From positions 1 through 32,838 of the forward strand of contig JAEINW010000031.1 of NCBI GenBank assembly GCA_016342715.1: a DNA stretch of 32,838 bases, in the 5' to 3' direction. The stretch comes from Salinivirgaceae bacterium (GTDB lineage Bacteria > Bacteroidota > Bacteroidia > Bacteroidales > SZUA-534). Of the stretch, positions 13,564 through 32,491 are shown one piece after another (position 1 is the stretch's first letter; each line of letters starts with the position of its first letter). Made by a program: the position numbers and the translations under genes. The notes under the pieces were generated by a model, which saw nothing but the letters and a program-made list of their open reading frames with translations, did no database searches and was not told the origin of the DNA.

Positions 13564-15873
13564 TTATAGGGTTATTACCAGAGTCGTATTTGCAATGTTT
13601 TGATACTCTTTGCCAAACACAAGTAGCGGAACGTTCGCTTTGCCTTGGTTTGAAATTTCAATTTTATCAGTAAAAGTCTGCACATGAATTACATGGCCAT
13701 GGAAACGAACTTTAAATGAATAGCTTTCCCAGGATTTGGGTAGTTTTGGACTTAAATGCAATTTTCCATCATACACTCTTAGTCCACCAAAGCCTTGAAC
13801 CACCGACATCCATGTGCCAGCCATTGAGGTAATGTGCAAACCTTCGTGTACTTCGCAGTTGTAATCGTCTAAATCTAAACGTGAGGTTCTCAAATATAGT
13901 TCGTAGGCTTGCTCCATTCTGTCGAGTTTTGCAGCCAGCACGGTATGTACACAGGGCGAAAGGGAGGATTCATGGACGGTTCTTTGTTCGTAAAAATCAA
14001 AGTTGCGTTCAATGGTGTCGATGTCGTAGTTTTCTTCAAATAAATAGATTCCCTGAAGGGTATCGGCTTGTTTGATAAAACAGGAACGTAAAATTCGATC
14101 CCAGCTCCACTTTTGGTTAATGGGTCGATGTTTCGATTCCAAATCTTTAACCAATATTTGTTCTTTATTCAAGTAGTTATCTTGTTGTAAGAACACGCCT
14201 AATTCTTTGCTTTCAGGAAAATGCATGTTTTCAGCAATGTTTTTCCAGCGTGAGGCTTCCTTTAATTCTACAAAGTTTAGTTTCGAAACTAAAGCTTTGT
14301 ATTTGGTAGGATTTGTTTCTTTAACATACTCTAGGGCTTCTAAGGTGTAATTTAAGCACCAGCATGCAAGGGTGTTTGTGTACCAGTTGTTATCCACATT
14401 ATTTTCGTATTCGTTGGGTCCGGTAACTCCAAGAATTACATATTTTTCTAAATTTTTTGAATACGTTGAACGTTGACTCCAAAATCTTGAGATTCCCATC
14501 AACAATTCCAAACCATAATCTACCAGATATTCTTTATCTTCGGTATAGCGAATGTAATTGTAAACGGCATAGGCAATGGCACCGTTTCGGTGTATTTCTT
14601 CAAAGGTTATTTCCCATTCGTTGTGGCATTCTTCCCCATTCATGGTTACCATAGGGAAAAGAGCAGAACCACTATTAAAACCCAGCTTGGTCGCATTTTC
14701 AATGGCTTTTCCAAGCTGCTTGTATCTGTAGATTAACAAATTCCGAGCTACTTTTTTATCGGCAGTGGCTAAATAAAAGGGCAGACAATAGGCCTCTGTA
14801 TCCCAGTATGTGCTACCGCCATATTTTTCGCCGGTAAAACCTTTGGGACCAATATTTAAACGTTCGTCTTCGCCGGTATAGGTTTGATTTAGCTGAAAAA
14901 TATTAAAACGAATGGCCTGTTGTGCAGCCACATCGCCTTTTATGGTAATGTCACTTTCTTCCCATTTGGCAGCCCACGCCTGCACTTGTTCTGCAAGCAT
15001 TTTATCGTAGTGTTTTTCCTGGGCTTTATCAAGCTCAGCCTTTGCCACTTGGTGCAAGGTATGTTCTGGATGATTGAATGACGATACATTGGTGGCAAAT
15101 TTGTAAATTATAATTTCATCGCCTTCTTTTACATCAATTGTAACAGAACTTTCGGCATATTTTTCCCGGGTTAATACTTTCGGGTCAAGATTTAGTTTTT
15201 CACCATTTTTCCAGATTTCGTAACGCATTGCTGTCGTTACTGCAAAAGCTGTTTTTTTAGTAATTGCACTTACAAAAGCCTCGCAATTATTTGCCGATTG
15301 AGATACTTCGCTCCAAAATTTTTCGTCGTAATTGGAATCGGTATTCATTACATCGGCATCCACATAGGGAGTAATTACTATTTGGCCAGTAAAATTTTCA
15401 GCTTTTATGGCATATTTAATGGCTCCTAAATCGTCGTCAACTATGCTTAAAAAGCGCTGAGTATCAACAGAAATTTTGTTTTTATTTGCTAATTGAGCTT
15501 TGAAAGAACGAGCTAAAGTTCCTTCTTTCATATTTAGCACTCGCTTAAAATCTTTAACTGTAACTTTTGCTAAGTCAAGGTCTTCGCCATTTACATTAAT
15601 GTTTATGCCTATCCAGTTTGCAGCGTTTAAAACTTTAGCAAAATATTCGGGATAACCGTTTTTCCACCAGCCAACTTTTGTTTTGTCAGGGTAATACACT
15701 CCGGCTATATAACTTCCTTGCAATGAATCTCCAGAATACTTTTCTTCAAAGTTTGCTCGCTGACCCATTCTTCCATTTCCTATGCTAAATATGCTTTCTG
15801 AAGAAGTAACATTATCTTTATTAAATTCTTCTTCTATAATATTCCACTCATCGAGTTTTAAATACTTATTCAT
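13564..15873 (-). CDS. GH65 maltose phosphorylase
   Basis: A 769-residue inverting disaccharide phosphorylase of family GH65. It splits maltose with inorganic phosphate into glucose and beta-D-glucose-1-phosphate in the cytosol. There is no signal peptide. The N-terminal beta domain (about 1-270) leads into the alpha/alpha barrel (about 310-690). The acid catalyst is E488 in VTGPNEYENNVDNNWYTN, equivalent to Glu487 of the Lactobacillus brevis enzyme. The substrate motif STYWDTEAYCLPF (about 354-366) and the phosphate-binding HESSLSPCVH are intact. Kojibiose and trehalose phosphorylases share the family. Maltose is favoured by the flanking GH13, beta-phosphoglucomutase and maltose-type transporter genes. 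It starts 215 bp after pgmB, a gap holding a structured element. Confidence 0.93.
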   Translation of the reverse strand: MNKYLKLDEWNIIEEEFNKDNVTSSESIFSIGNGRMGQRANFEEKYSGDSLQGSYIAGVYYPDKTKVGWWKNGYPEYFAKVLNAANWIGININVNGEDLDLAKVTVKDFKRVLNMKEGTLARSFKAQLANKNKISVDTQRFLSIVDDDLGAIKYAIKAENFTGQIVITPYVDADVMNTDSNYDEKFWSEVSQSANNCEAFVSAITKKTAFAVTTAMRYEIWKNGEKLNLDPKVLTREKYAESSVTIDVKEGDEIIIYKFATNVSSFNHPEHTLHQVAKAELDKAQEKHYDKMLAEQVQAWAAKWEESDITIKGDVAAQQAIRFNIFQLNQTYTGEDERLNIGPKGFTGEKYGGSTYWDTEAYCLPFYLATADKKVARNLLIYRYKQLGKAIENATKLGFNSGSALFPMVTMNGEECHNEWEITFEEIHRNGAIAYAVYNYIRYTEDKEYLVDYGLELLMGISRFWSQRSTYSKNLEKYVILGVTGPNEYENNVDNNWYTNTLACWCLNYTLEALEYVKETNPTKYKALVSKLNFVELKEASRWKNIAENMHFPESKELGVFLQQDNYLNKEQILVKDLESKHRPINQKWSWDRILRSCFIKQADTLQGIYLFEENYDIDTIERNFDFYEQRTVHESSLSPCVHTVLAAKLDRMEQAYELYLRTSRLDLDDYNCEVHEGLHITSMAGTWMSVVQGFGGLRVYDGKLHLSPKLPKSWESYSFKVRFHGHVIHVQTFTDKIEISNQGKANVPLLVFGKEYQNIANTTLVITL

Positions 15874-16088
15874 CTGATAAATTTTTATTTTTTATATCAA
15901 GGCCAGATGGAATGTCCATGTAAAACATTTTGTGTTTGAGTGATTATTTTTGTCTGAACATTTCATACGTATAAGTTTTGTGCTATTGTGAAAAAAACAA
16001 AACCATTTTATTTTAAAGTAAAAAGGGAACAGCATTATCCCCCAATAATCCCATGAAATTACTTATTTCTTGAGCGCTGTCCCCTAAC
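15874..16088 (-). other. pgmB-GH65 intergenic gap with structured element
   Basis: 215 bp without a gene. The part next to pgmB (16020-16085) folds into the three-way-junction-like element described separately. The remaining about 145 bp are AT-rich, and I see no further clear promoter box on the minus strand. Confidence 0.6.
16020..16085 (-). terminator. Three-way-junction terminator/attenuator-like element after pgmB
   Basis: Reading the minus strand, AGGGGACAGC pairs with GCTGTTCCCT over 10 bp (one G-U pair) and is followed by five T residues. Between the arms are two perfect hairpins, GAAAT-AAGTA-ATTTC and ATTAT-TGGGGG-ATAAT. The element starts three bases past the pgmB stop. It looks like an intrinsic terminator or processing structure between pgmB and the GH65 gene. 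The terminal repeats would also fit a 62-bp MITE that has been put to use. Confidence 0.55.
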
Positions 16089-16739
16089 TTATAAGAACTC
16101 TAATTTTTTCAGTGTTACTTCGTTTAAGCCCGAAACAACCATATGAGCATTGCCTAAATTATCACTGCTTCCAATACCCACGCAACGCATTCCCGCCTTT
16201 AGTGCGGCTTCAATTCCAGCTTCGGCATCTTCAAATACAATGCATTCCTGTGGAGTTGCATTTAAGCCTTTTGCACCAAGCAAAAATACCTGTGGATCGG
16301 GTTTTGCTTTTTGTGTTTTTGTTCCGTCAATGATTATATCAAACCAATTAACGATGTTTATTTTTTCAAGAATTGTGATTGCATTTTTACTTGCTGAACC
16401 CAAAGCTATTTTTATTCCAGCTTCTTTTAGTTCTGTAAAAAGTTTTATGGTTCCAGGTAATATTTCTTCTGGAGTCATTTTGTTAACAAATTCTAGGTAG
16501 CAAATATTTTTTTTTTCGGCATAAGCCAATTTTTGTTCTTCGTCGAGTTTTTGATTTCCAATCTCAAGTAAAATGTTTAGAGAATCCATACGACTCACTC
16601 CTTTAAGCCTTTCGTTATCGTCTAATGTAAAATCGAAGCCCAACTCGTTTGCTAATCTTTTCCACGCTTGATAGTGATACTTTGCCGTATCAACCACCAC
16701 TCCATCTAAATCGAATATACAAGCACTAATCTGTCCCAT
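16089..16739 (-). CDS. pgmB: Beta-phosphoglucomutase
   Basis: A 216-residue HAD-superfamily phosphomutase that interconverts beta-glucose-1-phosphate and glucose-6-phosphate. It carries the nucleophile D10 and acid/base D12 in FDLDGVVVDT, the cap domain after residue 15 (KYHYQAWKRLA), the second HAD motif GSASKN (S115, S117), the lysine motif KAKPDP (K146) and the metal site FEDAEAG (E170, D171). Length is normal for PgmB. It lies 24 bp behind the transporter gene and upstream of GH65, the classic maltose-phosphorylase pairing, so its product feeds phosphorolysis-derived beta-G1P into glycolysis. The ATG is followed directly by the first HAD strand. Confidence 0.95.
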   Translation of the reverse strand: MGQISACIFDLDGVVVDTAKYHYQAWKRLANELGFDFTLDDNERLKGVSRMDSLNILLEIGNQKLDEEQKLAYAEKKNICYLEFVNKMTPEEILPGTIKLFTELKEAGIKIALGSASKNAITILEKINIVNWFDIIIDGTKTQKAKPDPQVFLLGAKGLNATPQECIVFEDAEAGIEAALKAGMRCVGIGSSDNLGNAHMVVSGLNEVTLKKLEFL

Positions 16740-16763
16740 TGCTTATTGTAAGTAAGGTGTTAA

Positions 16764-18194
16764 TTATGAATTTTCTGTTTGTTTTTGTTTGACAAAAATT
16801 ACTGAAAGTGAGCCTAAAAGCATGCTAACACCTGCTATTACAATCATGTAAATTGCTTGACCATCAAAGAAGTGTTTTAATATTGATCCGGCAATCAATC
16901 CACTTATTATTTGTGGTCCGGCTATTGTAAAATTGAATATCCCCATAAAAACTCCCATTTTATCGGCAGGCAGCGATTCAGATAATATGGCATAAGGCAT
17001 GGCTAAAATACCGGCCCAGGCAATTCCAATCCCAATCATAGGAATTAACCATAGTGCTGCACTTGCAGGCACGTCAACTTGTGTTATTAGAAGGTTTAAA
17101 TGAATAATTTCACCTCCCGAAAGGAAAAGTGTAGAAATATAACTTAAGCCTCCAATTAAAAGGGCACCACCATAAACTGTTTTTCGGCCAATTTTATTTG
17201 CAAGTTTTGTCATAAAAAGTGAAAATATGGCTGCAAATAAGCTATAGCCAGCAAAAAGAATTCCCACCCAATCGCCTGCATTTTGCGATGCTTGAGAGGT
17301 ACTGTCTCCAATTGCACAGCCCCATACGTGTTGCGATAATGCAGGAGTTGTATAAACCCACATAATATATAAAGCAAACCACGAAAAGAACTGAACGATG
17401 GCTAACTGAAGCATTGTTTTAGGAGTTATTTTTAGCATTCTAAAAAAACCTAAAATACCTTTATACTGCGTTTCAACTTTTGGATTTTCTTCAAGGCCTT
17501 TATATTCGGCATATTCTTTAGGAGCATATTCTTTGGTTCTAAAAACTGTCCAAAGTACAGATGCTAAAAGAATAGCTCCACCAATATAAAATGACCAAAT
17601 TACCGAGGGCGAAACCTGCCCTGCTGGTGCGGTATTTGAAACATGAAGACTATTGGTTAAAATAAAGGGTAGGATAGAACCTAATACCGCTCCCGTGTTT
17701 ATTAAAAAGCTTTGGGTTGAGTATCCTAAATTTCGCTGACTGGGTGGAACCATGTCGGCAACCAAAGCTCTAAAGGGTTGCATGGTAATATTAAACGATC
17801 CATCCATTAGAGCGAACATAATTAGTCCAAACAGCAAAACAGGCATGAATTTAACAACCATAGAAGCATTGGGCATAAGAAACATTGATATGGCAGCAAC
17901 AATTGCCCCGCCTAAAATGTATGGACCTCTTCTTCCAAATCTATTCCATGTTCTGTCACTGGCCGAACCTACAATGGGTTGAACAATTAATCCCATCAAA
18001 GGGGCAGCAATCCAAAATAAGGGTAAGGAATGCAAATCGGCACCAAGATTCGAAAGAATACGACTAACATTGGCGCTTTGCAAAGCAAATCCCATTTGAA
18101 TGCCAAGGAATCCGAAACTAACGTTCCAAATTTGCCAAAAGCTTAGTTTTGGTTGTTTCTTCATAAGAGTGTTTTTTTCGACCATAACTTGCAT
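16764..18194 (-). CDS. MFS sugar (maltose-type) transporter
   Basis: A 476-residue inner-membrane carrier with about 12 hydrophobic helices, related to the GPH/SLC45-type maltose and sucrose symporters found in Bacteroidota maltose loci. The N-terminus has KLSFWQIWNVSFGFLGIQMG. The signature loop VGSASDRTWNRFGRRGPYI follows helix 2. A short charged loop at about 210-240 splits the two halves. It is the first gene of the minus-strand catabolic arm and probably imports maltose for cytosolic phosphorolysis. The start is uncertain: the ATG at 18194 is used here, but in-frame ATGs at codon 4 and at codon 11 (18164) would still leave the conserved LSFWQIWN segment intact. Confidence 0.9.
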   Translation of the reverse strand: MQVMVEKNTLMKKQPKLSFWQIWNVSFGFLGIQMGFALQSANVSRILSNLGADLHSLPLFWIAAPLMGLIVQPIVGSASDRTWNRFGRRGPYILGGAIVAAISMFLMPNASMVVKFMPVLLFGLIMFALMDGSFNITMQPFRALVADMVPPSQRNLGYSTQSFLINTGAVLGSILPFILTNSLHVSNTAPAGQVSPSVIWSFYIGGAILLASVLWTVFRTKEYAPKEYAEYKGLEENPKVETQYKGILGFFRMLKITPKTMLQLAIVQFFSWFALYIMWVYTTPALSQHVWGCAIGDSTSQASQNAGDWVGILFAGYSLFAAIFSLFMTKLANKIGRKTVYGGALLIGGLSYISTLFLSGGEIIHLNLLITQVDVPASAALWLIPMIGIGIAWAGILAMPYAILSESLPADKMGVFMGIFNFTIAGPQIISGLIAGSILKHFFDGQAIYMIVIAGVSMLLGSLSVIFVKQKQTENS

Positions 18195-18895: not shown

Positions 18896-19915
18896 TTAGA
18901 ATCCAGTTGATTCTCTTTTGATAATATTTGTTGCAATAATTTTAGTTACTGGCGAATAATTATCAATGGTTTGGGTAATACGGTTTAATAATAATTGTGC
19001 AGCTTGTTTGCCCATTTCGTAGCCGTGTTGGTCGATTGTTGTTAGGGTTGGATCAGTTACCATGGCAACAAAACCATCAGAAAAACCAACAACTTTAACA
19101 TCTTTAGGAATGTCGTAGCCATATTTTTTTACAATTTTAAGTACTCCGGTTGCGGTTAAATCATTTACAGCAAATACGCCATCTGGTTTAAGACCCGATT
19201 CGTAAATTTGAGTCATGACTTCCAATGCTTCTTCGCGTGAGTCGCACTTAAAGATTAGGCTTTCATCAAGAGGAAGGTTATGTTTTTTTAATGCTTTTAA
19301 ATAGCCTTCTTTTCGGCGTTGACCAATTAATAAATTTTGGGGAGCAGCCAGGTGAATTATTTTTTTGCAACCACATTCAATTAAGTGTTCAGTGGCAATA
19401 AAAGCACCTTGAACATCATCAATAATTACCTTATCGGTATTTACTTCTGCTACTGCGCGGTCGAAAAATACCAAGGGAGTTCTGTTTTCTAATAGTTCTT
19501 TATAATGTGTAAAATCAGTGGTGTCTTTTGAAACCGAAGCCAATACACCATCAACCCTTGCTGAACTTAAGGTTTGTAAACTGGTTATTTCACGCTCTTC
19601 GTTTTCGTCACTCTGACAAATCATTACATTGTAACCAGCTTCATTACATATATGTTCAATGCCACTAATCACTGATGAAAAGAAAAAATGAACCACTTTC
19701 GGAATAATTACACCTATCATATGTGTTTTGCTGCTACGGAGTGATAATGCAACAGCATTGGGTTTGTAGTGGTATTTGTTGGCTAGCTCGTGAACTGCTT
19801 CTTTAGTTTTTTTGCTTATATCAGGGTGATTTTTTAAGGCTCTAGATACCGTTGAAGGAGATATGTTTAATTCTCTCGCAATGTCTTTTATTGTGATTTG
19901 ACCTTTTCGTTCCAT
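18896..19915 (-). CDS. LacI-family transcriptional regulator of the alpha-glucan locus
   Basis: A 339-residue LacI/GalR regulator. The N-terminal helix-turn-helix (ITIKDIARELNISPSTVSR, then ALKNHPDIS, residues about 7-34) includes the usual hinge helix KPNAVALSLRSSKTHMIGV. Residues about 60-339 are the periplasmic-binding-protein-like sugar-sensing domain, with FAVNDLTATG and GFSDGF motifs. It sits between the two divergent arms of the starch/maltose locus, and matching LacI-type sites lie in front of both (18415-18428 and 20673-20696). It is therefore the likely local regulator, with maltose or a maltose derivative as effector (inference). Because both sites appear to lie upstream of the promoters, it could act as an activator. 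Its own -7 box is probably at 19939-19946. Confidence 0.95.
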   Translation of the reverse strand: MERKGQITIKDIARELNISPSTVSRALKNHPDISKKTKEAVHELANKYHYKPNAVALSLRSSKTHMIGVIIPKVVHFFFSSVISGIEHICNEAGYNVMICQSDENEEREITSLQTLSSARVDGVLASVSKDTTDFTHYKELLENRTPLVFFDRAVAEVNTDKVIIDDVQGAFIATEHLIECGCKKIIHLAAPQNLLIGQRRKEGYLKALKKHNLPLDESLIFKCDSREEALEVMTQIYESGLKPDGVFAVNDLTATGVLKIVKKYGYDIPKDVKVVGFSDGFVAMVTDPTLTTIDQHGYEMGKQAAQLLLNRITQTIDNYSPVTKIIATNIIKRESTGF

Positions 19916-20832: not shown

Positions 20833-23800
20833 ATGGTTAAAAAAATACTATCGTTGCTAGCAGTTGTTTTTATTACGCTATCGTTTGCTTACGCACAAAG
20901 CGGAACAGCAGTGGGAACAATTGTTGATGGAGATGGGTTGCCTTTAATTGGCGCAAATGTTGTTGTTAAAGGGACTACTATTGGTACAATTACCGATATT
21001 GATGGTAATTATAAACTTACTGGAATCCCAGTAGGGAATCAAGTGTTACTTTCTTCTTTTATTGGTTTTACAAATATTGAAAAACCAATCACTATGGAAG
21101 CCGGAAAAGAAGTGAAAGTTGACTTTATCTTAATTGAAGATATATCTCAATTAGACGAGCTTATTGTCATTGGTTATGGTACTCAGAAAAAAGAAGATAA
21201 AACTGGAGCAGTGGCTCATATTACTGCCGATGAATTAAATGGGGGTTCGCTATCTGATCCACTTCAGGCATTAGCTGGAAAAGCAGCTGGAGTGGTTGTG
21301 ACAAAAGGTGGAGGTGATCCAAATAGTGATGTTAAAATTAAAATTAGAGGCAGTTCGGGTATTAGTGGAAAAACAGATACAAATCCATTGTATGTTATAG
21401 ATGGGATCCCTGGGGCTGATCCTAGCATGATAGCACCTGAAGATATTGCTACCTTTAGTATACTTAAAGATGCTGCCTCAACAGCCATTTATGGTTCACG
21501 AGGAGCTAATGGAGTTATTCTTATTACCACGAAAAGAGGGTCTGTAGGTGCTGCGAAGATAAATTTTAATTATACAACCAGTTTAGATATGGTATCAAAG
21601 CGCTTGGATCTTTTTAGTGCTGATGATTATAGAACGTTTGCTAATTACATTAAAGGGGATGACTGGACAGATGGTGGTGCTTCAACGGATTGGCAGGATG
21701 AAATTTTTAGAACCGGGATCACCCAAAATTACAATTTGAGTGCTAGTGGTGGAACGGAAAAAAGTAATTATTTTGCTTCTGTTACCCATTCCAATTGGGA
21801 GGGCGTTATAAACGGCTCTGGAAAAGAAAGAACAATAGGTAAATTAAATGTCACTCATAAAGGACTTAATGATAAATTAACCTTGACAGGAGGACTGACC
21901 GTAGCTTTTGAAAAGAATGAATTAATCAATTACGAAGGTGGAAATAAGGAAAATGTTCTTTATCAAGCATACCAACGCAATCCTACGGATCCTGTGCTAA
22001 ATCCTGATGGATCCATCGCTTTTGAAATGGTGAGCGCAAACAGGGGATTTAATTATATCAATCCAGTGGGTATTATTGAATCCATAGACAAGAATGATAC
22101 GAAGAAAAAAATAATGGGAATTGCTAAAGCGGATTATGAAATAATTAATGGATTAGTAGCTAGTACAAACCTAAGTTATATTAGTAAAGATAAAGAATAT
22201 AAATATTTTAGACCAGTTGGTGTTTATGGCGGGCAAGGTGAAGATGATGGAGCTGCATCCAGATGGTATGAAGTGGATTTGCAGAAAAGTTTTGAAGCTA
22301 CTTTAACCTATTCGAAATCAATAGATGATTTGCATAATATTACTGCATTAGTCGGTTATACATGGCAAGAGAATAGTTTAGAAAAATTTGGAGTTGATAT
22401 CAGAAATTCACAATCGCCAACTGTAGGTTATAATAATCTGGAATCTTTTATTGATGTAAATCATGGCGATGTTAAATCGGAGGCTAGAATATCTAGATTG
22501 ATAGGCTTTTTTGGTAGAGCGCAATATAATTTTGAGAGTAAATATTATGCTTCAGCTTCTTTACGTAGGGATGGTTCTTCAAAATTTGGAGACAATAACA
22601 AGTGGGGCTTTTTTCCAACCGCTTCTTTGGCATGGAATCTACATAAGGAAGGTTTTATGGATAACTTGGGATGGCTGGATCAGCTAAAATTAAGAACCAG
22701 TTTCGGAGTGTCCGGTAATCAGGCTTTTGATCCTTATTTTAGTAAAACATTATATCGCCCAACTGGAGGTGTATCTATTGATCCAATTACAGGGGATGAA
22801 GTGTTAGTTTGGGTAGCAGAAAGAAATAAGAATGAGAATTTAAAATGGGAACAGACAACCGAAATTAATACAGGTCTTGATTTTGCATTTATCAATAGTA
22901 AATTAAGTGGTACTTTCGAATATTATTCAAAAACAACAAATGACTTAATAAACGAATACAATGTGCCCCAAGGGAAATTAGAATGGGATAGATTGTGGGC
23001 AAATTCTGCAACGATATTGAACGAAGGGATGGAATTATTTGTATCCTATTATGCTCTAGATAATACTAACTTGAAATGGAAAACGGCCATAGCTGTGTCG
23101 AAAAATAGCTCTAAAGTTACTGAATTAGGCGAATATTGGAGTGAAACAACTGATGGTAGAAAAGGATGGCTGTCTGGTGATGGAATGGTTGGTGGAGATA
23201 ATTGGACCATATATATTGAAGAAGACCAACCCTTAGGAAATTTTTACTTATATGAATTTGCCTATATTCAAGATGGTGATGCCTTTTATAAGAATAATTT
23301 TAAAGAGAATCCTGATGAAGAAGATTTCCTACGTGCAGATGATGAAGGTTTAGATAACCTCGATAGGAAAATTAAGGGAAATGCTACACCAGACATTGAA
23401 TTGTCATGGTCAAATAATTTAACTTTTTATAAGAATATTACGCTGGACTTTTCATTCAGAGCCCTTTTAGGTCAGCAAGTATATAATCATACACGAGGAT
23501 ATTTTGCTACACCTAATCATATCGCAGAGCGTAATTTAGTAACGGAAGCCGCTGATTATGTGAATCAAGATTATTTCGACTTATTTAAAAAACCCACAGA
23601 TTTGTTTTTAGAGGATGCATCCTTTTTAAGATTAGATTATATTTCATTGGGATACAATTTTAATTTTGATAATAACAACTATTTCAAAAGCCTAAAATTA
23701 TCAATAAGCTCAAATAATTTATTTGTAATAACTAAGTACTCCGGTTCTGATCCAGAAATGACCATTGATGGATTGGATTATGGAGTTGATAATTTCAATG

Positions 23801-23850
23801 TGTATCCAAAAACTCGAACTTTTAGTTTTGGTGTAAATGCAACTTTTTAG
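20833..23850 (+). CDS. SusC/RagA-family TonB-linked outer-membrane transporter
   Basis: A 1005-residue outer-membrane importer for oligosaccharides, working with the SusD lid and energised by TonB. Signal peptide at 1-21 (ending AYAQ). Residues about 27-102 are a carboxypeptidase-regulatory-like beta domain. A TonB-box-like segment (LDELIVIGYGTQKK) at about 107-120 leads into the plug (about 118-235), which contains the SusC signature LYVIDGIPG at 186-194. The rest is the 22-strand barrel ending in the terminal phenylalanine (FGVNATF) expected for outer-membrane proteins. Length is typical. It is the first gene of the plus-strand arm, downstream of the operator pair, and is followed after 21 bp by susD. 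Substrate is inferred as malto-oligosaccharide or starch from context. Confidence 0.96.
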   Translation: MVKKILSLLAVVFITLSFAYAQSGTAVGTIVDGDGLPLIGANVVVKGTTIGTITDIDGNYKLTGIPVGNQVLLSSFIGFTNIEKPITMEAGKEVKVDFILIEDISQLDELIVIGYGTQKKEDKTGAVAHITADELNGGSLSDPLQALAGKAAGVVVTKGGGDPNSDVKIKIRGSSGISGKTDTNPLYVIDGIPGADPSMIAPEDIATFSILKDAASTAIYGSRGANGVILITTKRGSVGAAKINFNYTTSLDMVSKRLDLFSADDYRTFANYIKGDDWTDGGASTDWQDEIFRTGITQNYNLSASGGTEKSNYFASVTHSNWEGVINGSGKERTIGKLNVTHKGLNDKLTLTGGLTVAFEKNELINYEGGNKENVLYQAYQRNPTDPVLNPDGSIAFEMVSANRGFNYINPVGIIESIDKNDTKKKIMGIAKADYEIINGLVASTNLSYISKDKEYKYFRPVGVYGGQGEDDGAASRWYEVDLQKSFEATLTYSKSIDDLHNITALVGYTWQENSLEKFGVDIRNSQSPTVGYNNLESFIDVNHGDVKSEARISRLIGFFGRAQYNFESKYYASASLRRDGSSKFGDNNKWGFFPTASLAWNLHKEGFMDNLGWLDQLKLRTSFGVSGNQAFDPYFSKTLYRPTGGVSIDPITGDEVLVWVAERNKNENLKWEQTTEINTGLDFAFINSKLSGTFEYYSKTTNDLINEYNVPQGKLEWDRLWANSATILNEGMELFVSYYALDNTNLKWKTAIAVSKNSSKVTELGEYWSETTDGRKGWLSGDGMVGGDNWTIYIEEDQPLGNFYLYEFAYIQDGDAFYKNNFKENPDEEDFLRADDEGLDNLDRKIKGNATPDIELSWSNNLTFYKNITLDFSFRALLGQQVYNHTRGYFATPNHIAERNLVTEAADYVNQDYFDLFKKPTDLFLEDASFLRLDYISLGYNFNFDNNNYFKSLKLSISSNNLFVITKYSGSDPEMTIDGLDYGVDNFNVYPKTRTFSFGVNATF

Positions 23851-23871: not shown

Positions 23872-25422
23872 GTGAAAAAGATAATATATATTAGTTTAGT
23901 GTTAATCGTTACATCTATTAGTTGTACCGATTTAAATGAAGATGTTTTGGATTCCATTTCCTCGAACAATTATCCAGAAACACCCGAGCAGATAGCAGTG
24001 CAACATCTTGAAAGTTATAATGCTTTATCATCGCTTTGGGATGACGGGGGTTATTGGTTTTTGGCTCAAGAAGTTTCATCAGACGAGATGGTAGCGCCAA
24101 CAAGAGGACCCCATTGGTTTGATGGGGGAAAATGGTTGCAATTGCAATACCATAATTGGAATGATCAGAGTGATCCGCCGGTTGGAATGTGGCGTGATAT
24201 TTTTAGAGGAATTGTTACAAGTAATAAAATTAATGATAAATTAAAAGCTGGAGGTGGCTTAGCTCAGAGTAAAATATCAGAAGTGGAAGCCATTCGATCC
24301 TTTTATTATTATATTTTTATGGATAATTTTGGTGATGTGCCGTATCTAGATAAATATATAGGTGCACCAGAAAAACCTTTTAGGAATAACAGAACTGAAA
24401 TATTTGACAGTTTAACTACGACCTTGGAAAGAGGATTGAAAAATTTACCATCTATTTCAAATCCAGCATATAAAAATTATGCTTCTAAAGAAATGGCTCA
24501 GGCCTTATTGGTTAAGCTTTATTTGAATGGTAAGGTTTATGCTGAAACAGATGATCAAATATTTTATGAAAAAGCCATTCAATATTGTGATAGCTTAATT
24601 GCCAATGTAAATCTTTTTTTAGAGCCAGATCCATTGGACGCCTTTAAAGTTGATAACACAAATTCTTCTGAAGTAATTTTTGCAGTTCCTTTTGATGAAG
24701 TAAATAAAGAGGGTTTTCGTTTGCATATGCGAAGCTTGCATTACAATCATAACGAAACCTTTGATATGGCTGCAGGACCCTGGAACGGATTTTGTGTAAT
24801 ACCTGATCATTTTGATACTTATCAGTCTATAGATAAAAGAAAATCTGGCTATTTCTTATGGGGTCCACAATTTACATATTCCGGTAGTCCTCTGATGGTG
24901 GATGGAAAGCAACTTGATATTGATTATAAGATTCCTTATCCAAATATGCCTGTGGATGGACCATTGTCAATAGACTTTATTACAAACTGTGGCGCAAGAA
25001 TACAGAAGTTTGAAATTTACAAGGATGCAAAGGAAAACTTGACTGTTAATTTTCCAGTATTTAGATTGTCAGATATTTATTTAATGAAAGCGGAAGCAGA
25101 ATTAAGATCTTCTGGCTTAACTCCTGCAACACTTACTTTGGTTAATCAAATTAGATCAAGAGCTAGTATTGCAGAATGGAATTTAGGTGAAGTAACTCTG
25201 GATTCAATTTATGCTGAAAGAGGGAGAGAATTGTATGCTGAAGGTCATCGTAGGAATGATATGATACGATTTGGAAAATTTGACCAGCCCTTTTGGGGTA
25301 AGGGAGATGAAACCGATCCTAATGACCCGGGGCAAAATGCCATTGAGAATATTTTCCCAATACCATTAAATGCTAGAACAACCAATCCAAATTTAGATTT
25401 AGAACCAAAACCAATAAATTAA
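23872..25422 (+). CDS. SusD/RagB-family starch-binding outer-membrane lipoprotein
   Basis: A 516-residue surface lipoprotein that caps the SusC channel and binds glycan. Lipoprotein signal with lipidated C18 (TSISC), followed by an acidic TDLNEDV segment consistent with surface export. The N-terminal TPR-like half (about 40-260) and the C-terminal SusD domain, ending in the characteristic VNQIRSRA, ERGRELYAEGHRRNDMIRFGKF and IFPIPLNA blocks, are complete. The start codon is GTG at 23872, preceded at 23861-23866 by AGAAGG, an unusually good Shine-Dalgarno for this phylum, which decides the start. It is 21 bp behind susC. Starch specificity is inferred from the operon. Confidence 0.95.
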   Translation: MKKIIYISLVLIVTSISCTDLNEDVLDSISSNNYPETPEQIAVQHLESYNALSSLWDDGGYWFLAQEVSSDEMVAPTRGPHWFDGGKWLQLQYHNWNDQSDPPVGMWRDIFRGIVTSNKINDKLKAGGGLAQSKISEVEAIRSFYYYIFMDNFGDVPYLDKYIGAPEKPFRNNRTEIFDSLTTTLERGLKNLPSISNPAYKNYASKEMAQALLVKLYLNGKVYAETDDQIFYEKAIQYCDSLIANVNLFLEPDPLDAFKVDNTNSSEVIFAVPFDEVNKEGFRLHMRSLHYNHNETFDMAAGPWNGFCVIPDHFDTYQSIDKRKSGYFLWGPQFTYSGSPLMVDGKQLDIDYKIPYPNMPVDGPLSIDFITNCGARIQKFEIYKDAKENLTVNFPVFRLSDIYLMKAEAELRSSGLTPATLTLVNQIRSRASIAEWNLGEVTLDSIYAERGRELYAEGHRRNDMIRFGKFDQPFWGKGDETDPNDPGQNAIENIFPIPLNARTTNPNLDLEPKPIN

Positions 25423-25447: not shown

Positions 25448-26986
25448 ATGAAGAAGAATTTTTTAAGATTATTTGCAATTGCTATCATTGGAGCAATTTC
25501 TTTTACAGCTTGTGATAAAGATGATGATGGTCCAACTATAACACCAACCCCAACAGATACAACTGGTGTAAGTGTGAATTTGCCTGATGGTTACTATGTT
25601 TTTAATGGAGGAACAACTATTGAAAATATCACAGCTGATGGATTAATGAAAGTTACTAGAAACGAAGTGATTCAAGAAGATCGTGATGATTTATTAGAAG
25701 TATTCTTCCCAGTAAGCGCAGCAGACGGTTTTTATTTAATGGAAATTAAAAACAAAAAACCAACTATGATAGCTGCGGGTGCTGATTTTGCTAAGATTGC
25801 AGAACCAGATACTGAAGCTCCACAAGATGGTTTATGGCGCGGTGCTTTTGTTGAGGATTCTTCAGCATTTACTGTGGAAGAAGATGGTTTATATCACATC
25901 ATGATTGACCTTGAAGTTGAAAAAATTGCTATTGCCTATGTAAAAACATGGGGCGTAATTGGTGCTGCAACTCCTGGTGGATGGACAACTGATACTGAAC
26001 TTGCTTTAGAAGCATTTGATATGAATACATTGGTGTTTAAAGCAACTGAAATTGAAATGTCGAAAGCTGATTTCAAATTCCGTTATAGCGGTGGATGGAA
26101 AGTTATTATTGATTCTGAGTATGCTGCAGATCCTGAAGATGCTACAAAATTGGGAATTAAAGTTAACACGAATTTTGGTGGAACTCTTGAAGCATTGGTT
26201 CCAGGTGGAGATAACATTGCAAATGAAACTCCAGGTATTTATACAATTACTATGACATATATTGTTGGAACAGGATATACTGCTGTTCTTGAAAAAACTG
26301 GTGAGTCTGGTATTATTGATTATTCAGCAACTGAACTTGGTTTAATTGGTTCATATATTGTTATTGGTGAAGAAGCCTCTTCTGGTTGGGATGTAACAGC
26401 AGGTTTAACTATTCCTGAAGCAAACAATACCGTTTATACTTGGAGATGGTCGGCAGTTGAAATTATGGCTGATAGTTCTTTCAAAATTCGCGAAGGTCAA
26501 ACTTGGGATGATATAAGTATTGGTTATGGCTCTGTTACAATGGCTGGAAGTTTAGCTGATGATTTTGGTACAAATGCTGATGGAAATTTTGTTCCTACGG
26601 TTGATGGTACTTATGACTTTACATTAACTATTGATGCTTCAACTGAAACATATACATTTACAGCTGAACCAAGTGGAACTCCAGTTCCAGATCATATTTG
26701 GGGAGTAATTGGTTCTTCAGTAGTACCATATGATTGGACCGTTGACGTAGATATGACTTGGGAACACACAACAAATATTTGGTCTGTGACTTTAGATATG
26801 GTAGCTGGTGAATGGAAATTCAGAGCTGATGACGATTGGGCTTTAGCTTATGGTGTTGATGGTGACGGTAATTTAACTTCTGAAGGTGGTGCTACTAATA
26901 TGGCAGTAACTGAAGATGGAAACTATACCATCGAGTTAATATTAACAGATGCTGAAAATCCAACTTATACAATTGTTAAAAACTAA
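25448..26986 (+). CDS. SusE/SusF-like starch-binding surface lipoprotein
   Basis: A 512-residue outer-membrane lipoprotein. Lipidated C22 (SFTAC) is followed by DKDDDG, a good match to the lipoprotein surface-export signal of this phylum. A first beta domain (about 40-160) precedes three repeats that each open with a W/L-G-(V/L)-IG motif: residues about 167-285 (TWGVIGAATPGGW), 297-408 (LGLIGSYIVIG) and 417-510 (IWGVIGSSVVPYDW). Each repeat has a later FK(F/I)R or WKFR strand with nearby tryptophans, typical of SusE/SusF carbohydrate-binding modules. It probably holds alpha-glucan at the cell surface without cutting it. It is 25 bp behind susD and followed by a perfect palindromic terminator before the amylase gene. 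Confidence 0.92.
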   Translation: MKKNFLRLFAIAIIGAISFTACDKDDDGPTITPTPTDTTGVSVNLPDGYYVFNGGTTIENITADGLMKVTRNEVIQEDRDDLLEVFFPVSAADGFYLMEIKNKKPTMIAAGADFAKIAEPDTEAPQDGLWRGAFVEDSSAFTVEEDGLYHIMIDLEVEKIAIAYVKTWGVIGAATPGGWTTDTELALEAFDMNTLVFKATEIEMSKADFKFRYSGGWKVIIDSEYAADPEDATKLGIKVNTNFGGTLEALVPGGDNIANETPGIYTITMTYIVGTGYTAVLEKTGESGIIDYSATELGLIGSYIVIGEEASSGWDVTAGLTIPEANNTVYTWRWSAVEIMADSSFKIREGQTWDDISIGYGSVTMAGSLADDFGTNADGNFVPTVDGTYDFTLTIDASTETYTFTAEPSGTPVPDHIWGVIGSSVVPYDWTVDVDMTWEHTTNIWSVTLDMVAGEWKFRADDDWALAYGVDGDGNLTSEGGATNMAVTEDGNYTIELILTDAENPTYTIVKN

Positions 26987-27008
26987 GAATATTTTAAATA
27001 TTATTATA

Positions 27009-27036
27009 AAAAGAGCACACCATGGTGTGCTCTTTT
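27009..27036. terminator. 28-bp perfect palindrome, intra-operon terminator
   Basis: AAAAGAGCACACCA (27009-27022) is exactly complementary to TGGTGTGCTCTTTT (27023-27036). As RNA it gives a stem of about 12 bp with a tiny loop and a four-U tail. It lies 22 bp after the susE-like stop and 26 bp before the amylase ATG, so it probably acts as a partial terminator or an mRNA-stabilising 3' hairpin that sets susCDE expression above that of the downstream secreted proteins. Confidence 0.85.
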
Positions 27037-27062
27037 ACTATCAACTAAGAAATATTATACCA

Positions 27063-29834
27063 ATGAGGCAACTGCTACTTTTTGCATTTATAATTTTTGT
27101 AAGCGCTATTCAGGCACAGGTAATAAGTACCGATCCTGCATTTCCTATACAGAATGGACAAGTAATAATTACTTTTAATGCTACGGGCACTGGCCTTGAA
27201 GGTGCTACTGGCGATGTTTACGCTCATACGGGTGTTACTATTAATGGCGAACGTTGGGCAAATGTTATTGGTACTTGGGGCGATAATACCTTACAACCAA
27301 AACTTACCAATGTTAGCACTGATTTATATGAATTGGAAATAACACCTTCAATAAATGACTTTTATAGTGTTTCTGCCGGTGAAAACGTAACTGAACTTTG
27401 TTTTGTTTTTCGAAGTGGTGATGGAGGATCGCAATCAGCCGATCTTTTTGTTGAGGTATATCAATCAGAATTAAGTGTAAGCCTTATTTCACCCTATAAT
27501 AATGCAATTGTTGAATTTAATTCAATCATTAACATTCAGGCAGCAGCAAATTTTGCCGATAGTTTAATTCTTTATGTTGATGAAGTTAGAATTGATGCAA
27601 CTACTGAGTCGGAATTAACGAATACTTGGAATGTAAATACTTACGGAAAACATTGGATAAAAGCAGAAGCTAAAGACGAAACCACCAGTGTATTTGACTC
27701 CGTTTCGTACTACGTAAAAGGCGAGGTAATTATTGAAAATTTACCCGCAGGAGTACGATACGGAATCAATTATATAGATGATGAAACGGTTACTTTAGTT
27801 TTACATGCTCCCAATAAAGAATTTGTGTATCTAATTGGCGATTTTAATAATTGGGATGTTTCCTTAACTACTCAAATTGATGAATCAAATCCATTGCAAG
27901 TACTGTCAGATACCTGGATGATGAATAAAACGCCCGAAGGAACTCATTTTTGGATTACCATTGAAAACCTTCAAACACAGGTAGAATATGCTTATCAATA
28001 CTTTATCGATGGCAAAATTGTGGTGGCCGATCCTTATACAGAGAAAGTGCTCGATCCTTGGAATGATAAATATATTTCTGATGAAACCTATCCAAATTTA
28101 AAAGCCTATCCTGAAGGAAAAACAACGGAGCCAACATCTGTATTTCAAACAGCTCAAGAAGAATATCCTTGGGAAGTAGAAGCCTTTACACCTCCAGCAG
28201 TCACTGACATGGTTGTTTACGAAATGTTAATTCGCGATTTTGTTGAAACTCATGCCTATGCTACCATTTCAGATACTTTGGATTATCTGCAAAATTTAGG
28301 TGTGAATGTGCTTGAATTAATGCCCATTAACGAATTCGAAGGCAATTCAAGCTGGGGTTACAATCCCTCGTTTTATTTTGCCCCCGATAAATATTATGGT
28401 CCAAAAGAAGAACTTAAAAAGCTAGTGGATGAGTGCCATAAGCGTGGAATTGCGGTGGTAATTGATATGGTTTTGAACCATTCATTCGGGCAAAGCCCAT
28501 TGGTACGGATGTATTTCGAAAATGGAAAACCTGCTGCCGATAATCCATGGTACAATGTCGATCATAACTTCCAAAATCCTGATGCGCATTGGGGCTACGA
28601 TTTTAATCATCAAAGTATTGCCACTCAAGAATTGGTAGATAGTGTGAATTCATTTTGGATGACAAATTATAAAGTGGATGGTTTCCGATTCGATTTTACC
28701 AAAGGATTCTCAAATACTATTTATGGACCCACAGATTGGGGTAGTGCCTATGATCCTGCAAGAATCTCAAATCTTAAACGTATGACTGATAAAATACGTG
28801 TGGTTAACCCAGATGCTTATGTAATTTTCGAACATCTTTCTGACAATACTGAGGAAAAAGTATTGGCTAATTATGGTATCTTATTATGGGGAAATATTAC
28901 TCATAATTATGCCGAAGGTACCATGGGATGGACAGAAAGTGGCAAGTCCGATCTGTCATGGATATCTTATAAAGAAAGGGATTGGACTTATCCCCATGTG
29001 ATGGCTTATATGGAAAGCCACGACGAGGAACGCATGATGTTTAAGAATTTGCAATGGGGAAAAGATGAAGGTGCTTATGATACAAAAAATATTTTTACAG
29101 CCTTACGTAGGGCTGAATTGGCTGCATGCTTCTTTTTAACTATACCTGGGCCAAAAATGTTGTGGCAATTTGAGGAATTGGGCTACGATTATTCCATCGA
29201 TGAAAATGGCAGAGTTGGCGAAAAACCCATTCGTTGGGATTACTTTCATACATCGGCCAGAAAAAGACTGTACGATGTTTTTGGAGCCTTGGCTAAAATT
29301 AAAGTTAATGAACCTGCTTTTGAAACAGACGATTATAATTTGGATGTTAGGAATGGGGTGAAAACCATTCATCTGAATCATTCCGATATGAATGTGGCGG
29401 TTTTGGGAAACTTTGAAGTGACGGAACAATCGGTCGATCCGAGTTTTCAAGAAACAGGGTGGTGGTATGAATATTTTAGTGGCGATTCAACCAATATAAC
29501 TAATGTGAATGCAGAATTTGCCTTTGATCCTGGAGAATATCGATTGTACACTACAAAACGCTTGGAAACTCCTATAATTGAAGATTCGATTATTAAAAAA
29601 GTACCAAATACAACGATCGGTGTTTACCCAAATCCTGTTAAAGATATGCTATACTTTGCCAATATGGAAAATGTGGTGAAAGTAGCAGTTTACAATATGT
29701 TTGGGCAGGAAATATATGCAATTAACGATATTATTCAAAGCATATCTGTATCAGCACTCGAATCGGGGGTTTACTTTATTAAAATTAACGATATAAATGG
29801 TGTTGAATATTTATCACGTTTTATAAAACTGTAA
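27063..29834 (+). CDS. Multidomain GH13 alpha-amylase with T9SS sorting domain
   Basis: A 923-residue secreted amylase. Signal peptide at 1-19 (ending SAIQAQ). Residues about 20-132 are an N-terminal beta domain of the kind found on Bacteroidota amylases (DVYAHTGVTI, WANVIGTWGDN). About 135-218 is Ig-like, and about 228-350 is a CBM48/AMPK-type glucan-binding domain (VYLIGDFNNWD). The GH13 barrel covers about 380-760, with VVIDMVLNH (D468, N472, H473), GFRFDF with nucleophile D544, VIFEH with acid/base E590, and ESHDEE with H653 and D654. Residues about 850-923 are a T9SS type A sorting domain (GVYPNPVKDMLYF ... GVYFIKI). I start it at 27063. A longer in-frame ATG at 26949 would run through the susE 3' end and the terminator and bury the signal peptide. 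It likely replaces lipoprotein SusG as the surface amylase. Confidence 0.93.
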   Translation: MRQLLLFAFIIFVSAIQAQVISTDPAFPIQNGQVIITFNATGTGLEGATGDVYAHTGVTINGERWANVIGTWGDNTLQPKLTNVSTDLYELEITPSINDFYSVSAGENVTELCFVFRSGDGGSQSADLFVEVYQSELSVSLISPYNNAIVEFNSIINIQAAANFADSLILYVDEVRIDATTESELTNTWNVNTYGKHWIKAEAKDETTSVFDSVSYYVKGEVIIENLPAGVRYGINYIDDETVTLVLHAPNKEFVYLIGDFNNWDVSLTTQIDESNPLQVLSDTWMMNKTPEGTHFWITIENLQTQVEYAYQYFIDGKIVVADPYTEKVLDPWNDKYISDETYPNLKAYPEGKTTEPTSVFQTAQEEYPWEVEAFTPPAVTDMVVYEMLIRDFVETHAYATISDTLDYLQNLGVNVLELMPINEFEGNSSWGYNPSFYFAPDKYYGPKEELKKLVDECHKRGIAVVIDMVLNHSFGQSPLVRMYFENGKPAADNPWYNVDHNFQNPDAHWGYDFNHQSIATQELVDSVNSFWMTNYKVDGFRFDFTKGFSNTIYGPTDWGSAYDPARISNLKRMTDKIRVVNPDAYVIFEHLSDNTEEKVLANYGILLWGNITHNYAEGTMGWTESGKSDLSWISYKERDWTYPHVMAYMESHDEERMMFKNLQWGKDEGAYDTKNIFTALRRAELAACFFLTIPGPKMLWQFEELGYDYSIDENGRVGEKPIRWDYFHTSARKRLYDVFGALAKIKVNEPAFETDDYNLDVRNGVKTIHLNHSDMNVAVLGNFEVTEQSVDPSFQETGWWYEYFSGDSTNITNVNAEFAFDPGEYRLYTTKRLETPIIEDSIIKKVPNTTIGVYPNPVKDMLYFANMENVVKVAVYNMFGQEIYAINDIIQSISVSALESGVYFIKINDINGVEYLSRFIKL

Positions 29835-29886: not shown

Positions 29887-32439
29887 ATGAAAAAACTTTT
29901 ACTTTTTATTTTACTTGCTTGCAATGTTTTAATTGAATTAAAGGCTCAACCATGGTTTCCAGAGGACAAGCAAATTTTTCGTAAAGATGTCATTCCAAGA
30001 GTAGATATATCTATTCATCCCGATTCTTTAAACTGGATATATGAAAATGTCGATTCTTATCATGAGTTTAAAGTTGATTTTATTTATACGGTTGATGGAG
30101 ACTCTGATACGGTATTGAATGTTGGCTTTCGATTACGTGGAAATACTTCTCGATATGCGGCTAAAAAATCATTTAAAGTATCATTTAACACCTTTGAATC
30201 GGGAAGAAAATTTAAAGGTCTGGAAAAAATGAATTTGAATGGGGAGCACAACGATCCTTCCATTATTCGAAGTTATTTAGGATGGAATGTATGCAAGGAT
30301 ATTAAAATTCCTGGAGCAAGAGTAAATCATGTGGAGTTTTATATAAACGACGAATATTTTGGCTTGTATGCAAATGTGGAGCATATTGATGAAGAATTCA
30401 TTGAAAAACGCTTCGATCATAATTTTGGAAACCTTTACAAATGCCTTTGGCCTGCCAGTTTAGAATATTTGGGTACTAATACTCAGGATTATATAGATAA
30501 TGGATACGAATTGAAAATAAATTCAGATCAGCCTGATTATTCCGATTTAATAAACCTTACTCAAATAATTAGTAACACTAGTAGTGGAGATCTTCAAACT
30601 TATTTAGAACCAATCTTTAATGTAAACGCTTTTCTACGATATTTGGCCATGGAGGTTTTTATTGGTCATTGGGATGCCTATTCCTTAAACACTAATAATT
30701 ATTACTTATATAACAATAAGTTCACTGGCAAATTTGAATTTATCCCCTACGATTTAGACAATACCTTTGGCGTTGGCTGGATGTACGATTATTTAGCTTC
30801 AAGAAATATTTACAGCTGGGGCAGTACGAATTTTAACACACTGATTTTATCCAATGAAACTTATCGCAACAGGTATTCATATTTTCTGAACCGCTTAGTG
30901 GAAACCCATGAAACGGACACTTATTTTTCAGAAATTGAAAGCAAAAAAGAACAAATAAGTACTTCGGCAAATTTAGATCCTTTTAGGCCGCTAGATTATG
31001 ATTGGTCCTATGCCGATTTTTTAACTTCTTATACCAGCGCACTTGACGATTATCATGTGCACTATGGTCTAAAGCAATTTATATCGGAGCGTATTGCAAA
31101 TATTAATAACCAGTTAGAGTTAAACCCAATTGATCCTATTATTGAAAATATCTATCATAATTTTGCGGCGCTTAACGAAGCTATAAAAATTAAAGCCGAT
31201 ATTAATGATGATCAAGCAGGATGTGCTGCCAAAGTGTTTTGGAAAATTGGCGATGGTAGTTATCAATCGGTATCCATGACTAACGATTCCTTGGATGTTT
31301 TCTCTGCTATCCTACCTTCAGTTACTTCAGAAGGAACGCTTTATTATTATGTGGAGGCTACCGATGCTTCAGACAATAATACTCGCGATCCATTTTCAGG
31401 CTCCTATGAAATCATATTCGGTGAAAGTGCAAAGCAAATTGTTATCAATGAATTTATGGCGAGCAATACCCAAGCTATTTACGACAATTATGGAGAAACG
31501 GATGATTGGATTGAATTAAAAAATAAAGGAACGCAAGCGCTTAATTTGGGCGATTTATTTTTAAGCGACGATATAACAGATAAATCGAAATGGAAATTGC
31601 CAAATGTTACTTTAGCACCCGGTGATTTTTATTTGGTTTGGCTTGATAAAGATACGGAGCAAGGTGACAATCATGCCAATTTTAAAATAAGTGCTGATGG
31701 AGAATTTATTGGCTTATTCGATTCATTTGAAAGCAACTATGCAGCCATCGATACATTAACATTTTCTGCCGTAGGTTCTGATATTTCCATGGGTTTAAAT
31801 ACACAAGGAAGCATGGGTATACAATCGTTTATTACTCCCATGGGTGAGAATGAATCGAATGAACTTGCTTATATCACTTTCAATTACAACATGAATAAAC
31901 AAATTCAAGATGGTAATTTTGTTCAAAATATCGATTTTATTGACATTGCGGGTACCTTTAATAGTTGGAATGGTTCGGTTTTGATTTATGATGGCGACGA
32001 TGATGGCATTCATACGGCTACACTTTTTGGATACACCGCAAATCAAGCTATTGAATATAAAGCGCGCATGGGAGCTATCTGGGAGGGTGGTGAATTTTAT
32101 GACTTGGGTGAGGCCGGAAACCGTCAATTTACTGTGGGCTCAGGAGCAAACAGTGTTTCGCATTGGTTTAACGATGAACCTTTGGAAATCGACCGCTATG
32201 CAGCCAACACCGAATTTAGTATTTATCCAAATCCTGTGCAAAGTTCCGGTTTTACTATAGAATCAGAAGCAGATATTTCTGAAGTTTCTCTGTTTGAATT
32301 AAGCGGAAAGCTCGTTTACAAAGCTATTCCAGCCATGGGAAATCAAATTCGAATAGAGCAAATGTTTCAACCCGGATTATACATAATTAAACTGAATTAT
32401 AATAAGACAGTACATTGTAGAAAAATAATTATTCATTAG
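29887..32439 (+). CDS. CotH-kinase-family protein with LTD, glucan-binding-like and T9SS domains
   Basis: An 850-residue secreted protein. Signal peptide at 1-20. Residues about 35-400 are a CotH domain: RGNTSRYAAKKSFKVSF (about 84-100) carries the nucleotide-binding lysine region, GHWDAYSLNTNNYYLY includes D263 and N270/N271 as catalytic-loop candidates, and FIPYDLDNTFG (D289, D291) is the metal-binding counterpart of DFG. Residues about 415-510 are a beta domain. About 517-630 is a lamin-tail domain (VINEFMASN, DDWIELKN). About 670-760 resembles a CBM48-type glucan-binding fold (IAGTFNSWNGSVLIYDGDDDG). About 775-850 is a T9SS type A sorting domain (FSIYPNPVQ). CotH proteins are atypical protein kinases known from spore coats and from domains on carbohydrate-active proteins. 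The substrate here is unknown. It follows the amylase by 52 bp and ends the operon. Confidence 0.9.
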   Translation: MKKLLLFILLACNVLIELKAQPWFPEDKQIFRKDVIPRVDISIHPDSLNWIYENVDSYHEFKVDFIYTVDGDSDTVLNVGFRLRGNTSRYAAKKSFKVSFNTFESGRKFKGLEKMNLNGEHNDPSIIRSYLGWNVCKDIKIPGARVNHVEFYINDEYFGLYANVEHIDEEFIEKRFDHNFGNLYKCLWPASLEYLGTNTQDYIDNGYELKINSDQPDYSDLINLTQIISNTSSGDLQTYLEPIFNVNAFLRYLAMEVFIGHWDAYSLNTNNYYLYNNKFTGKFEFIPYDLDNTFGVGWMYDYLASRNIYSWGSTNFNTLILSNETYRNRYSYFLNRLVETHETDTYFSEIESKKEQISTSANLDPFRPLDYDWSYADFLTSYTSALDDYHVHYGLKQFISERIANINNQLELNPIDPIIENIYHNFAALNEAIKIKADINDDQAGCAAKVFWKIGDGSYQSVSMTNDSLDVFSAILPSVTSEGTLYYYVEATDASDNNTRDPFSGSYEIIFGESAKQIVINEFMASNTQAIYDNYGETDDWIELKNKGTQALNLGDLFLSDDITDKSKWKLPNVTLAPGDFYLVWLDKDTEQGDNHANFKISADGEFIGLFDSFESNYAAIDTLTFSAVGSDISMGLNTQGSMGIQSFITPMGENESNELAYITFNYNMNKQIQDGNFVQNIDFIDIAGTFNSWNGSVLIYDGDDDGIHTATLFGYTANQAIEYKARMGAIWEGGEFYDLGEAGNRQFTVGSGANSVSHWFNDEPLEIDRYAANTEFSIYPNPVQSSGFTIESEADISEVSLFELSGKLVYKAIPAMGNQIRIEQMFQPGLYIIKLNYNKTVHCRKIIIH

Positions 32440-32491
32440 TTATACCTTACAACTTTAATTTTTACCTCTCTCCCGATCAATATCGGGATCT

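Follow-up and report, generated by a model that had tools for sequence, protein, structure and literature searches.

Domain architecture of a CotH-type protein in a Sus-like locus

The contig JAEINW010000031.1 of a Salinivirgaceae bacterium (assembly GCA_016342715.1) was analysed over positions 1-32,838, a stretch referred to here as the window. At positions 29887-32439 of the forward strand, directly behind a gene for a secreted amylase-family protein, it carries an open reading frame (ORF) of 850 amino acids, confirmed by ORF calling. The product joins a CotH kinase-like domain to a module with the predicted fold of a starch-binding domain and to a C-terminal sorting domain of the type IX secretion system (T9SS). 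Its features are as follows (LTD, lamin-tail domain; CBM, carbohydrate-binding module).

29887-32439, forward: CotH, FN3-like, LTD, CBM20-like and T9SS-tail protein, 850 residues (ORF, Pfam/NCBIfam, AlphaFold model)
29887-29949, forward: probable signal peptide, residues 1-21, judged from the hydrophobic N-terminus
29986-31128, forward: CotH kinase-like domain, residues 34-414 (Pfam; model against 5jd9/5jda)
30673-30675, forward: D263, aligned with the catalytic Asp of CotH (Asp in 38/38)
30751-30753, forward: D289, aligned with the second Asp of the CotH catalytic site (Asp in 38/38)
31129-31425, forward: FN3/Ig-like domain, residues 415-513, where many structure matches of the full-length model (ranks 3-45) align
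31426-31761, forward: LTD, residues 514-625 (PF00932, E value 7.7e-13)
31837-32190, forward: CBM20/CBM48-like starch-binding-type module, residues 651-768 (predicted fold, profile searches)
31966-31968, forward: W694, opposite the first Trp of the AMPK beta-2 CBM in the alignment, kept in 7/7 CotH-borne copies
32080-32082, forward: W732, opposite the second Trp of the AMPK beta-2 CBM in the alignment, kept in 6/7 CotH-borne copies
32221-32433, forward: T9SS C-terminal sorting domain, residues 779-849 (Pfam, TIGR04183; model against PorZ 5m11, Z 9.4)

The CotH, LTD and T9SS-tail matches each exceed the curated cut-offs, the last with E values of 4.2e-9 (Pfam) and 1.2e-10 (TIGR04183; 41.2 bits against a cut-off of 23). 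Chance domain calls are ruled out, the E values and folds being far from chance. Export of the protein by T9SS is plausible because the genome encodes both SprA (SprA_N, E value 8.1e-162) and PorV (E value 1.5e-129). The full-length AlphaFold model, built from 38 aligned sequences, has a mean pLDDT of 85.5.

Pfam PF08757 (CotH) matches residues 82-374 (E value 1.1e-55; 189.9 bits against a cut-off of 23.8). The modelled domain matches CotH of Bacillus cereus (PDB: 5jd9/5jda) with Z scores of 39.8/39.3 over 347/349 residues and a root-mean-square deviation (rmsd) of 2.4 over 347; its pLDDT, taken in 10-residue blocks, lies mostly at 82-96, with one block at 70. Two Asp residues of B. cereus CotH (hand-counted positions 224 and 247 of the 5jd9 chain) are the counterparts of D263 and D289 in the alignment. 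The spacing of 23 in this aligned pair equals that of D228 and D251 in Bacillus subtilis CotH, on which spacing, rather than on a direct alignment, the mapping to the B. subtilis residues rests. The D228Q and D251A forms of B. subtilis CotH are catalytically inactive (PMC7821199; here and below, cited papers are represented by extracts). In all 38 aligned sequences D263, D289, D291, N270, N271, E165 and D168 are invariant, the other 37 being 38-53% identical to the window protein and spanning records labelled Bacteroidota, Caldithrix, KSB1 and Chlorobiota. Y184 is Tyr in 33 and Phe in five of the 38, and Y288 is Tyr in 37 and Phe in one. Since adenine in CotH is sandwiched by two aromatic residues, according to a review (PMC12189002), Y184 and Y288 are candidate counterparts of this pair.

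In a second alignment, comprising the window protein and 19 other CotH proteins, most of them from non-starch loci, the columns of D263 and D289 are, by eye, Asp in all 20 rows; D291 is replaced by Asn in many of the distant rows, and other positions vary. Active-site geometry was judged from the fold match and the residue alignment. Taken together, the invariant residues argue for a selected nucleotide site across the CotH family rather than for activity or a starch substrate. A degenerate pseudokinase is not supported, the catalytic-type residues being invariant in 38/38. Two further CotH proteins of the same genome (L053:7173-12032 and L054:2930-5500), which carry LTD and chitobiase C-terminal-like domains, keep both catalytic-type Asp residues and differ at other motif positions.

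The foremost rival explanation has the CotH domain serving as a binding or structural element of a non-catalytic surface protein, which would bind or scaffold starch in the manner of SusE/F and owe its function to the CBM. Loss of some catalytic-type residues would be expected in a domain with a purely structural role; the 38 sequences keep them all. For cellulosomal CotH proteins, however, a 2025 review calls the role not clear and notes that structural as well as kinase functions have been proposed (PMC12484212), and wall binding has also been suggested (PMC8665504). A related protein described below, which has two binding modules and no CotH domain, is encoded between SusD and GH13 in another genome and likewise speaks for a binder. 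We consider this explanation unlikely, if worth serious attention.

A CBM20-like module behind the lamin-tail domain

The segment GTFNSWNGSVLIYDGDDDG falls inside the module at residues 651-768, which has no Pfam match in the scan of the whole protein. Scanned alone, the window copy yields no CBM_20 match and reaches neither the CBM_48 nor the CBM_20 cut-off of Pfam; it is therefore called CBM20-like and is not filed as a member of the clan. When the module was modelled alone (AlphaFold, pLDDT 85.1), its best match was the CBM20 of STBD1 with maltotetraose (PDB: 8x8k; Foldseek E value 2.1e-6; Z 11.2, rmsd 1.9 over 90 residues). Of the 50 VIA matches listed, nearly all are chains that contain starch-binding domains, such as CGTases, glucoamylases and beta-amylases. 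Two profiles were used: A5, which includes GH13-borne domains, and A6, made from the seven CotH-borne copies only. The module-only model was built on A5. The full-length model derives from a different alignment, A2, and also fits 8x8k, at residues 659-763 (Z 9.3). The support for a CBM offered by the A5 profile itself (matches to pullulanase and AMPK beta) was set aside as partly circular, since A5 contains GH13-borne domains. The columns of W694 and W732 were placed opposite the Trp pair of AMPK beta-2 with the profile that includes these domains; the AMPK pair is one that we take to stack against glucan.

Profile A6, although limited to CotH-borne copies, detects this module on three other proteins, with matches quoted in bits since the E values refer to a small ORF set. 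On the T9SS alpha-amylase L197:2949-5444 it occupies residues 42-148 (104.8 bits) and scores just under the CBM_48 cut-off (20.6 against 22.4). The other two, both T9SS proteins, each carry two copies and pass the CBM_48 cut-off: L199:2189-3973, which has GH13 and LacI genes beside it, and L064:5351-6340 (the same as L200; genome G005), between SusD and GH13. The predicted fold, together with the occurrence of the module on an amylase and on proteins that score as CBM_48, points to a CBM.

The sequence-only reading, an earlier note made from the DNA letters without database searches, had named the CotH, lamin-tail and T9SS domains, and Pfam recovers all three (T9SS also by TIGR04183). The CotH aspartates it took to be intact, D263, D289 and D291, prove invariant in the 38 relatives, and the comparison with CotH kinase structures that it had proposed gives the close fit to 5jd9 described above (Z 39.8). 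Its glucan-binding-like segment has a CBM20-like predicted fold (Z 11.2 to 8x8k), though the Pfam cut-off is missed. The placement 52 bp behind a T9SS amylase holds as well, this amylase being a GH13 protein with a T9SS tail of its own.

CBM20/48-like modules also occur on a protein of LTD-CBM-LTD-CBM order (L194:3192-5360) and, in the window's own genome, on a 3385-residue PKD protein (L055:1831-11988). A T9SS protein of 1104 residues (L078:9605-12919) has four clear CBM-like repeats and CBM9 domains; it adjoins a homologue of the window's secreted GH13, and a CotH gene without CBM is nearby.

Starch genes of the window and gene order among relatives

The genes that surround the CotH gene in the window are the following.

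9306-18194, reverse: divergent maltodextrin cluster with a cyclomaltodextrinase-type GH13, an esterase-like protein, GH13, GH65, a HAD hydrolase and an MFS transporter
18896-19915, reverse: LacI-family regulator (Pfam/NCBIfam)
20833-23850, forward: SusC/RagA TonB-dependent transporter (TIGR04056, E value 1.4e-213)
23872-25422, forward: SusD-like protein (Pfam/NCBIfam)
25448-26986, forward: SusE/SusF-like protein (PF16411, E value 1e-13)
26949-29834, forward: secreted GH13 alpha-amylase-family protein with a T9SS tail (Pfam/NCBIfam; likely start 27063)

With SusC, SusD and GH13 together, the locus is Sus-like. The GH13 ORF as called from 26949 overlaps the SusE/F-like gene, and a start at 27063 is suggested because of a signal-peptide-like stretch. 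The 52-bp gap between the end of the GH13 ORF (29834) and the CotH start was searched for a terminator-like site or structure and none was found; the two genes are probably transcribed together. A short inverted repeat, cccgatcaatatcggg, lies downstream of the CotH gene at 32472-32487.

Seven distinct CBM-bearing CotH genes were found: that of the window, four in genomes of the same family (G007=L063, G005=L064, G011=L065 and G001=L138), and two on contigs of metagenome-assembled genomes labelled Chlorobiota (L066 and L092). In neighbourhood counts, GH13 labels were assigned by phmmer with the window's GH13 proteins at 40 bits or more, not by a GH13 profile. In 6/6 CBM-bearing CotH genes for which upstream DNA is available (the window and five others), the gene immediately before CotH, 24-225 bp away, is the window's GH13 or a homologue of it; the seventh contig starts inside the CotH gene and stands outside this count. 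SusC and SusD are both seen near the gene in the window, L064, L092 and L138, the other contigs ending first.

Among 12 genomes, GH13 occurs within 5 kb of 7/12 orthologues and of 0/40 other CotH genes (Fisher p 5.9e-6, with kinship and contig ends ignored); the 40 were counted after three rows that are fragments of listed genes had been dropped, and short contigs can hide an adjoining GH13. This set overlaps that of the 80 nearest GTDB loci; of these, 28 are positive for GH13 within 5 kb, 24 are negative and 28 are not judgeable. Our working figure, confined to loci with full flanks, is 13/37. By our own arithmetic, a total of 105 GH13 matches, counting fragments, in some 50 Mb of sequence corresponds to a chance rate of roughly 3%. 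Of the families encoded immediately upstream at the 80 loci, GH13 is the most frequent (18/73), and the downstream neighbours are led by MFS_1 transporters (8/73) and GH13 (7/73). A quick tree built from 81 CotH proteins requires no fewer than eight changes of the GH13 label, and two for the CBM. At four loci a GH13 protein of about 790 residues with an N-terminal CBM-like module is encoded on the same strand at most 14 bp behind CotH (L073:12211-14586, L080:12268-14649, L082:3139-5514 and L122:4924-7305). A search for plasmid-borne relatives matched four records, none covering 80% of the query.

In a phylum-wide draw, the CotH-LTD-T9SS core is present in 56/395 genomes at E values of 1e-30 or below, the window's own included. 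Only the window's own match in this listing extends beyond residue 672, and the CBM-bearing form is rare in the sampled genomes. The neighbourhoods of the first 40 loci after the window's own, in score order, were compared; 34 have 5 kb on both sides, and the six cut ones were left uncounted. GH13 lies within 5 kb in 1/34, so that the starch setting is limited to certain lineages. The same phylum-wide loci (L154-L193) have no constant partner, the commonest neighbouring family being DUF2911 (8/78, uncorrected for relatedness). The core is a widespread, mostly non-starch protein that has been recruited into starch loci in some lineages. Of the susC/D-GH13-CotH gene order that the sequence-only reading had proposed to survey, the linkage thus stands within the lineage, where 6/6 CBM-bearing genes follow GH13, and does not extend to the phylum.

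These distributions bear on a further alternative, in which the protein is a general secreted CotH kinase whose substrate is unrelated to starch, for example another T9SS or surface protein, and the locus supplies only expression or anchoring. The breadth of the core, its usual position outside starch loci and its changing neighbours are what such a protein would lead one to expect. Its placement beside GH13 in several branches of the tree is not, nor is the fusion of a starch-binding-type module to CotH only where, among the genes seen, CotH has the same GH13 immediately before it or lacks upstream sequence. We regard this alternative as improbable.

A predicted phosphotransferase on starch, and known systems

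The explanation that we tentatively favour, at somewhat less than an even chance, is that of a surface, glucan-tethered CotH-type phosphotransferase belonging to a Sus-like starch system, its activity and its binding both being predicted from sequence and structural models. T9SS would carry the protein out of the cell, as it would the neighbouring amylase, and the CBM20/CBM48-type module, to judge by its fold, would hold it at the surface on alpha-glucan beside that enzyme, with the LTD and FN3-like domains as spacers. The CotH domain may then transfer phosphate locally, either to a Sus or amylase partner, at Ser/Thr, or to glucan hydroxyls. The gene would have been recruited from the widespread CotH-LTD-T9SS core, and the binding module added in the CBM-bearing lineage or lineages. 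We infer activity from the conservation of the active site, and joint action with the amylase from gene order.

Several points weigh against this explanation. The main objection is that we know of no extracellular supply of ATP or other phosphate donor, which also counts in favour of a non-catalytic binder. The module scanned alone stays below the CBM_48 threshold (13.0 bits against 22.4, E value 0.13). Once the GH13-borne copies are left out, sequence support for a CBM is weak: the best values among the seven CotH-borne copies are 2.7e-4 for CBM_20 and 3.8e-4 for AMPK1_CBM, profile A6 reaches AMPK beta chains of the PDB at E values of 0.68 or worse, and hhalign aligns the CotH-borne with the GH13-borne copies at a probability of 7.4%. 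A crude count found no Ser/Lys/Arg-rich repeat stretch like those of CotB/CotG in 12 proteins of the locus. The Asp residues at D263 and D289 are equally kept in CotH proteins of non-starch loci, so that keeping them does not link the kinase with starch, and the phylum-wide neighbourhoods indicate a CotH core that is not dependent on starch. The interpretation offered by the sequence-only reading, an extracellular kinase or adaptor held on starch by a glucan-binding module, is on the whole partly supported.

A special case of the favoured phosphotransferase is a secreted glucan kinase: positioned by the CBM20-like module, CotH would phosphorylate surface starch and loosen crystalline glucan for the adjacent amylase. 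A glucan-binding module on a kinase would bring starch to the active site. CBM20 is also found on PWD, a glucan dikinase of plants, and in laforin it is combined with a phosphatase. The structure-match entry 4rkk is presumably laforin. Fam20B, a relative by fold, phosphorylates the sugar xylose (PMC5865150). The characterised CotH is nevertheless a Ser/Thr protein kinase, and the literature covered reports no member of the CotH family acting on a glycan (PMC7821199; PMC12189002). We see the glucan kinase as a long shot.

The joining of CotH to polysaccharide-degrading systems is already known. A search of the open-licence literature returned no report of CotH in starch loci, or of its combination with an alpha-glucan module, T9SS and a Sus-like placement. 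Extracellular systems that degrade carbohydrates carry CotH domains repeatedly. Their role can be addressed here with a single protein, a single polysaccharide and a single active-site mutant, since this CotH domain is joined to a predicted alpha-glucan module and its gene immediately follows that of an amylase. An active protein would add phosphorylation to Sus-like starch use; a glucan kinase would be the extracellular equivalent, in bacteria, of starch phosphorylation in plants.

Among known systems, SusE/SusF of Bacteroides and other Sus surface binders are likewise alpha-glucan-binding proteins with CBM-like repeats in a SusCD locus, but unlike the window protein they are not known to have a kinase-like domain. 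The CBM20 of STBD1 (8x8k) and the CBM48 of AMPK beta share with the module the predicted fold and the aligned Trp residues, whereas the window copy misses the Pfam cut-offs and its binding is predicted. In PWD and laforin, too, a module that binds glucan is coupled to a domain with phosphoryl-transfer or phosphatase function; the plant GWD/PWD enzymes and laforin are eukaryotic, act in other locations and are not relatives of CotH, to which only Fam20 is distantly related. That distant relative, represented by Fam20B, has a kinase-like fold that acts on a sugar (PMC5865150); it too is eukaryotic and acts in another location.

The CotH proteins of B. subtilis and B. cereus (5jd9, 5jda) have in common with the window protein the Pfam family, the fold and the catalytic-site Asp residues; Bacillus CotH is a spore-coat kinase acting on the repeats of CotB/CotG (PMC7821199), and its solved chain lacks the LTD, CBM and T9SS tail. 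Anaerobic fungi carry dockerin-CotH proteins (PMC8665504, PMC10978972), for which a wall-binding role is termed speculative in PMC8665504, and fungal CotH kinases are the subject of Lillington 2023, as cited in PMC12484212. The cellulosomal CotH proteins of Clostridium thermocellum include the dockerin protein Cthe_0239, with the order LTD-LTD-Fn3-CotH, and CseP, Cthe_0044 (PMC6083626, Table 1). They and the window protein alike combine CotH with LTD and Fn3 domains on an extracellular polysaccharide-degrading system; attachment by dockerin to a machinery for cellulose is, however, replaced in the window protein by a T9SS tail, an alpha-glucan-type CBM and a Sus-like locus.

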